Part shown: positions 61,312-61,541 of the stretch, in pieces
Position numbering within the stretch: position 1 is the first letter of the stretch
Layout: the number at the start of each line of letters is the position of its first letter
Origin: Brachyspira aalborgi
GTDB lineage: Bacteria; Spirochaetota; Brachyspiria; Brachyspirales; Brachyspiraceae
Length of the DNA: 64,000 nt
Assembly (NCBI RefSeq): GCF_008016455.1
Contig: NZ_SAXU01000001.1
Coordinates: 1,674,001 to 1,738,000, forward strand
Reading direction: 5' to 3'
Position numbers and translations under genes: made by a program
Notes under the pieces: generated by a model
What the model was told of the DNA's origin: nothing
Database searches by the model: none
The model's input: only the letters and a program-made list of their open reading frames with translations

Positions 61312-61392
61312 ATGATTAAAATGAATATTATAAAATACGCTTTTGAGAACTCAACTCAACTCAACTCAACTCAACTCAACTCAACTCACTAA
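61312..61392 (+). CDS. Leaderless repeat peptide, pentanucleotide locus 2 (short phase)
   Basis: A 26-codon ORF whose ATG coincides with the predicted transcription start (a second in-frame ATG lies three codons on). It reads 13 lead residues (MIKMNIIKYAFEN), then the CAACT array as repeating STQLN, and stops 6 nt after the array. The neighbouring frame is open from the array through 51 codons into the downstream lipoprotein ATG, so losing one repeat or gaining two fuses the two ORFs. No known family. Confidence 0.5.
   Translation: MIKMNIIKYAFENSTQLNSTQLNSTH
61352..61386 (+). repeat. Pentanucleotide array (CAACT)7
   Basis: Seven perfect tandem copies plus a partial copy at each side, inside the leaderless ORF. 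Confidence 0.95.
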
Positions 61393-61541
61393 TATTATAT
61401 AAAAAATTATTTTTAGGGATAACTATATCCTTTTCAAACGATTTATTAAAATATATTCAATATTTTATTCATAAACTAATTTCGTTAATAAGCGTTATCT
61501 TTAACGCATATTATAAAAAATTTAATTACAAGGAGTTCAAC

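Follow-up and report, generated by a model that had tools for sequence, protein, structure and literature searches.

Pentanucleotide-repeat leaders upstream of lipoprotein genes in Brachyspira aalborgi: probable phase-variable cistrons coupled to the downstream gene

Background

The closest known system to the one studied here is the leader of the pil1 operon of Streptococcus gallolyticus. In pil1 and pil3, GCAGA repeats lie in leaders whose longer versions prevent transcription termination (Danne et al. 2014, PMC3894217), and strong terminators of -18.7 and -28.2 kcal/mol act as the switch in these two pilus operons (PMC3894217). Our subject is a leader that precedes a predicted lipoprotein gene of the spirochete Brachyspira aalborgi, and that consists of an array of pentanucleotides followed by a long open frame. 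The window, which is the whole stretch of 64,000 nucleotides that was analysed, covers C1:1674001-1738000 of a 2.50 Mb genome. It contains two such lipoprotein loci, locus 1 (array w7428) and locus 2 (array w61348), and this paper is mainly about the second.

As in pil1 and pil3, a pentamer array sits in a short leader open reading frame (ORF) between a promoter and a surface-protein gene, the number of copies sets the length of the leader, and leaders in the long form extend across and beyond the region that precedes the start of the gene. In contrast to the two pilus operons, the Brachyspira leaders number about thirty, use varied repeat units, are open to or through the next start codon, mostly lack a recognisable terminator and precede diverse genes. 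Because the defining terminator was tested for and not found, locus 2 was not filed as a member of the pil1 type, though it would work like one.

Two other comparisons are useful. In the contingency loci of Neisseria, Haemophilus and Campylobacter, slippage in a non-triplet repeat shifts a reading frame; locus 2 likewise has a perfect non-triplet repeat in a translated region, and changes in its copy number toggle a frame between closed and open. Unlike in the classical loci, the array at 61348 belongs to a separate leader cistron, and the lipoprotein gene keeps its own Shine-Dalgarno sequence and start codon. In leader attenuation of the trp type, too, the progress of a ribosome on a leader sets downstream expression, but there the signal is amino acid supply and here it would be the copy number of a mutable repeat. 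The literature searched, whose coverage is incomplete, contained no description of phase variation by pentamers in Brachyspira.

From comparisons of sequence, we propose that locus 2 probably carries a phase-variable leader cistron coupled to expression of the lipoprotein, and that the interval between the array and the gene is the extension of this cistron.

Results

The leader and lipoprotein gene of locus 2

All features of locus 2 are on the forward strand. The leader transcript has a sigma-70-like promoter, TTGACA-17-TATAAT (61275..61303), that matches the consensus at 12 of 12 positions. The first leader ATG, at 61312, is only 8 nucleotides (nt) past the -10 box, a near-leaderless start; it shares its frame with a second ATG at 61321. 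The array (61348..61388) consists of 8.2 copies of AACTC, also written CAACT, is 100% perfect, and has no stop in any of the three frames, the codons being CAA, CTC, AAC, TCA and ACT. A model in which the array tunes promoter spacing was rejected, since the array lies downstream of the promoter. By direct reading, the leader ORF (61312..61392) is now in truncated phase and encodes MIKMNIIKYAFENSTQLNSTQLNSTH*, and its stop codon, TAA at 61390-61392, comes one base past the array.

One frame behaves differently: exactly 51 codons without a stop separate the array from the lipoprotein ATG (61389..61541), in the lipoprotein's own frame, while the remaining two frames close 1 and 11 nt past the array. 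The distance from the leader ATG to the lipoprotein ATG is 61542-61312 = 230, or 2 modulo 3, so that the loss of 5 bases or the gain of 10, that is, minus one or plus two copies, restores the frame. With one unit removed, a single ORF runs through the lipoprotein. The corresponding distance at locus 1 is 254, again 2 modulo 3. The preliminary description had claimed the open frame and this offset, and had put the chance of such a frame at about 1% per locus. Dinucleotide shuffles agree with that figure: in them, the own frame is fully open with frequency 0.00765 at locus 2 and 0.00725 at locus 1. Under the looser criterion that any frame reach a point 40 nt or less from the ATG without a stop, these values rise to 7% and 6%.

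The same description was right that the two loci encode paralogous lipoproteins behind different repeat units, AAGCA at locus 1 and CAACT at locus 2; this paralogy means that the loci are only partly independent. However, the leader body of locus 2 (61389-61510) resembles none of the other leaders convincingly, and only the last 31 nt or so before the ATG are common with another one (97% identity to paralogue L039). The open frame at locus 2 is thus an independent instance, which argues for the phase-variable leader.

The lipoprotein gene has a Shine-Dalgarno sequence AAGGAG (61530..61535) and encodes a predicted lipoprotein of 174 amino acids (61542..62066), with an N-terminal signal peptide ending ..LFTVSC and a lipobox cysteine, MNNTKTIFKSLLIMIVAISLFTVSC, both identified by direct reading and with no predictor. 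A Pfam search of the protein gave no family, and no relative was confirmed in GTDB contigs. An intrinsic terminator follows the gene (62110..62134).

A family of array leaders

Searches with the locus 1 leader and with array patterns yield about 30 leader loci in the B. aalborgi genome, a lower bound drawn from the searches and the stretches examined. They follow one design, in which a start codon for the leader precedes a pentamer array and a single frame then stays open up to or through the start of the next gene. The repeat units are AAGCA, CAACT, CAGCT, GCAAC, GAACA, CTACA, CAATA and one heptamer; none has a length divisible by three, and no frame of the pentamers contains a stop. The heptamer leader (L048, C1:303998-304114, unit GACGCGA) has a TTG start and an ATGA overlap with the gene of a 276-amino-acid lipoprotein. 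Copy numbers range from 1.8 to 19.8 among paralogues and differ between species too, with one genome compared per species.

Among the 24 loci that have a recognisable downstream start and could be scored, 22 have a frame that runs without a stop from the array to a point no more than 40 nt from that start, for a summed shuffle expectation of about 2. This excess is one reason for reading the leaders as phase-variable. A rough control covered the 18 array-free genes of the window that are preceded by 155 nt or more of true intergenic sequence, after both lipoprotein loci had been excluded and four rows in which a neighbouring gene overlaps had been removed by hand; 2 of the 18 have such a frame. 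Under neutral substitution at 10-15% divergence, just 6-21% of such frames would remain open.

The closed frames also support the phase-variable reading: both remaining frames of AAGCA, GAACA and CAACT leaders close within 24 nt of the array. In CAGCT-type and related leaders, one frame closes at once and the second about 20-70 nt before the start. Two long frames per leader are seen in L052, L095, L097, L100 and L186-L190, and such leaders might give three expression levels.

The downstream genes encode lipoproteins, a beta-barrel protein (PF13505), outer membrane proteins, dynamin/septin-like GTPases, a methyltransferase, an ABC ATPase, LPP20, and TM2/zinc-ribbon proteins. At three further loci, which we call type I (L046, L049, L099), the array lies inside the N-terminus of a lipoprotein or membrane-protein gene. 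These are classical switches, and their use of the same repeats is a further argument for phase variation in the leaders. In one place (L089, 440-700), an AAGCA leader lacks the usual extension and runs straight into the middle of a coding sequence unrelated to it. A search for the leader module in viral contigs found none.

Leaders in other Brachyspira species

Among 26 Brachyspira genomes, AAGCA arrays are confined to B. aalborgi and to B. catarrhinii Z12, its nearest relative by this feature, and arrays of the CAACA/CAGCA/CAACT type are found in 20. B. catarrhinii is divergent from B. aalborgi, with which it was formerly confused (PMC6779451). Its leaders have open frames of some 60 to 210 codons in spite of dispersed repeats inserted into some of them (L157, L159 and L165), and this persistence of the frame again argues for a phase-variable leader. 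Several B. catarrhinii contigs end in or beside arrays.

The B. catarrhinii leaders leave their open frame in different ways: by fusion to the gene (L157, L165), by an ATGA overlap (L156, L160), or just inside the gene (L159). In other Brachyspira, where the leaders are short and unrelated to these, there are ATGA/GTGA exits (L184, L175, L196), a leader that ends 6 nt before a GTG (L195) and one that ends 22 nt inside the gene (L182). In sister Brachyspira G031, a real intrinsic terminator lies within the open frame of two leaders (L179, L178); that of L179 crosses a 12-bp terminator and ends 12 nt before the ATG. This anatomy is the one proven for pil1 (PMC3894217), and it supports the same reading.

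Proposed mechanism

By strand slippage, the array would gain or lose CAACT units, and the leader would toggle between a short and a long form. In the short form, translation would stop right past the array, 150-200 nt of RNA would remain untranslated before the gene, and the lipoprotein would be low or off. In the long form, translating ribosomes would cover the RNA up to the Shine-Dalgarno sequence and ATG of the lipoprotein, which would be on. This coverage could block premature loss of the transcript, through hairpin- or Rho-dependent termination in the naked leader, or hand ribosomes to the start codon, or both. The long peptide would be a by-product, fused to the lipoprotein at locus 2 because no stop intervenes.

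Coupling at the level of transcription is slightly favoured over coupling at the level of translation, and short-phase transcript loss, assisted by a hairpin or by Rho, is favoured over simple unmasking of the start. Sequestration of the Shine-Dalgarno sequence was examined as a candidate and rejected: opening it costs no more than it does in shuffles of the leaders (mean rank 0.40 over 24 loci), except at L045 and L098. The genome encodes Rho and nearly all leaders are truncated, two facts that add to the case for a phase-variable leader. The ATGA and GTGA overlaps fit ribosome hand-over.

Several observations weigh against the proposal. The leader of locus 2 has no called intrinsic terminator, and the Shine-Dalgarno sequence of its lipoprotein gene is not unusually buried (dG of opening 3.6, and 4.0 in shuffles). 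The leader ATGs of locus 2 have no Shine-Dalgarno sequence, unlike the locus 1 leader; one is present in most AAGCA leaders. Among the other loci, L098 has no open frame, the leader of L045 ends within a hairpin that sequesters the Shine-Dalgarno sequence, and a fourth array of the window, at w1846, is followed by no frame that stays open as far as the next gene. Finally, many of the loci are paralogous, and the counts are consequently not independent.

More tentatively, the switch may be general. At least in B. aalborgi and B. catarrhinii, the dispersed set of about 30 leader cistrons could act by delivering ribosomes to the downstream start, that is, by coupling, instead of by a frameshift in the gene or, mostly, by an intrinsic terminator, and such a module could be placed before any gene.

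Hairpins, and the pil1 attenuator

In about 14 leaders, a hairpin precedes the ATG by 37-42 nt. When the arms are aligned in register by hand, six pairs are kept, with compensatory changes at four of them: CAGAGA/TCTCTG, CAAGGA/TCCTTG, CGAAAA/TTTTCG, CGAATA/TATTCG and CGGG/CCCG. At locus 2, a two-helix hairpin, TAATA-A-GCGTTA-TCTT-TAACGC-A-TATTA (61486..61513), sits in the same place and differs in sequence. Further upstream, a small hairpin, AGGGATA-ACTA-TATCCTT (61415..61432), makes no convincing terminator on direct reading.

These hairpins bear on the strongest of the alternatives, in which transcription attenuation of precisely the S. gallolyticus pil1 kind is the only way that the leader acts. 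Eight of the 24 leaders score as weak terminators, with TTTAGTTAT or TTTGTTAT tails, for 0.1 expected, most of the eight being related sequences; the hairpins stand at 37-42 nt before the ATG, their inner helix has the compensatory changes just given, and the G031 leaders have true terminators. However, no terminator is found in the leader of locus 2 nor in 16 of the 24, the U-tails of the B. aalborgi leaders are weak (TTTAGTTAT), and the open frames run past the hairpin to the start. An attenuator as the sole device is thus rather unlikely, although it deserves more credit than the alternatives that follow.

Phase of the sequenced leaders

Only three of the 27 leaders with an assignable start are in long phase (L051, L189, L190), and the rest are truncated. 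With one third expected, the binomial P is about 0.008, the loci being treated as independent. The type I loci are mostly OFF where the phase is unambiguous, L049 being an OFF case. These phases fit the reading that long means ON and that most surface genes were silent in the sequenced culture; the evidence is weak, because assemblies show one consensus phase. One of the long-phase leaders belongs to a pair of tandem leader copies with an N gap between them, upstream of an ABC transporter ATPase gene (L088/L051, C1:2000577-2001060).

The polarity could also be reversed, with translation of a long leader occluding the downstream start and the short phase ON. Most leaders being short now, most genes would then be on, and leaders do frequently cross the start codon. 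On the other hand, ATGA overlaps usually couple and do not repress, most type I genes, which contain the same arrays, are in an unambiguous OFF phase, and in pil1 long means high (PMC3894217). We consider reversed polarity improbable.

Exit frame and the selected property

The leader exits in the gene's own frame at locus 2, at locus 1 and at L038, L039, L041, L043, L084, L092, L090, L100, L188 and L190. It exits through an ATGA or GTGA overlap at L042, L091, L095, L097, L101, L189 and L048, and elsewhere it stops within about 30 nt of the start. The exit frame is consequently not conserved among loci.

The preliminary description had concluded that the frame itself is under selection. For an open frame, the support is now strong: it comes from many further loci, from two species with homologous leaders and from other Brachyspira with unrelated ones. 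Selection on the lipoprotein's own frame is not supported, since the exit frame is not that of the downstream gene in about half of the loci. Frameshifting indels in the interval had been named as evidence against conservation, and one is seen: at L042, closely paralogous to locus 1, the fusion became an ATGA exit through an indel within a run of A, and the leader stayed open. The suggested comparison of non-synonymous with synonymous change was also run, and a pooled ratio (pN/pS) of only about 0.66 indicates that the leader peptide itself is weakly constrained. Because the exit frame varies and the peptide is weakly constrained, the selected property looks like the arrival of ribosomes at the start codon, not an extended lipoprotein or fusion protein; the variable exit also favours the phase-variable leader.

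The same data speak to the idea that the long phase yields a functional lipoprotein with an N-terminal extension of about 75 residues, and that this fusion is what selection retains. The frame does enter the lipoprotein without a stop at loci 1 and 2, and in about half of all loci. However, the signal peptide would become internal, the other half of the loci exit in a frame that is not the gene's, as L042 came to do, the peptide shows the weak constraint just described, and the downstream genes retain their own Shine-Dalgarno sequence and ATG; such a fusion seems quite unlikely. Least plausible of all is an ordinary array in the 5' untranslated region that tunes promoter spacing or RNA stability, with an incidental open frame: chance odds of 0.8-7% at a single locus, depending on the criterion, are insufficient to exclude it from one locus alone, but the pattern is repeated in several species and at about 30 loci, and large insertions have not abolished it.

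If the phase-variable leader is correct, one spirochete genome holds about 30 independently switching genes, many of them for lipoproteins and outer membrane proteins, and surface diversity in colonic spirochetosis would have an explanation. Cultured strains may then hide antigens, most leaders being in short phase. A mechanism known from two pilus operons would become general, the selected trait being translation up to the start codon.

Other leaders and features of the window

The locus 1 leader (7390..7643, forward strand) starts at ATG 7390 behind a Shine-Dalgarno sequence (GAGGAAAG). Its AAGCA array (7428-7483, forward strand) is followed by an open extension of 53 codons with a terminator-like hairpin at 7588-7603, and by the paralogous lipoprotein gene (7644..8177, forward strand; ATG 7644). 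Upstream, at 7100-7344, a unit of about 55 bp is repeated and contains four tandem promoter-like TTGACA/TATAAT pairs (7130, 7185, 7240, 7317).

A third leader (17011..17322, reverse strand) has its ATG at 17322 and a CAGCT array at 17281-17244; its open frame stops 23 nt before a zinc-finger-like ORF of 37 codons that starts at 17010. Leaders related to it precede similar small proteins at L052 and L186. The fourth, w1846 (1846..1924, reverse strand), with a CAATA array at 1881-1846, is perhaps an orphan or a decayed switch.

An Rfam scan of the window found only a flavin mononucleotide (FMN) riboswitch (RF00050, 31174-31316, reverse strand) and one tRNA. Tandem repeats of 171 bp and 48 bp lie within an ORF of 336 codons (4255-4641, reverse strand).
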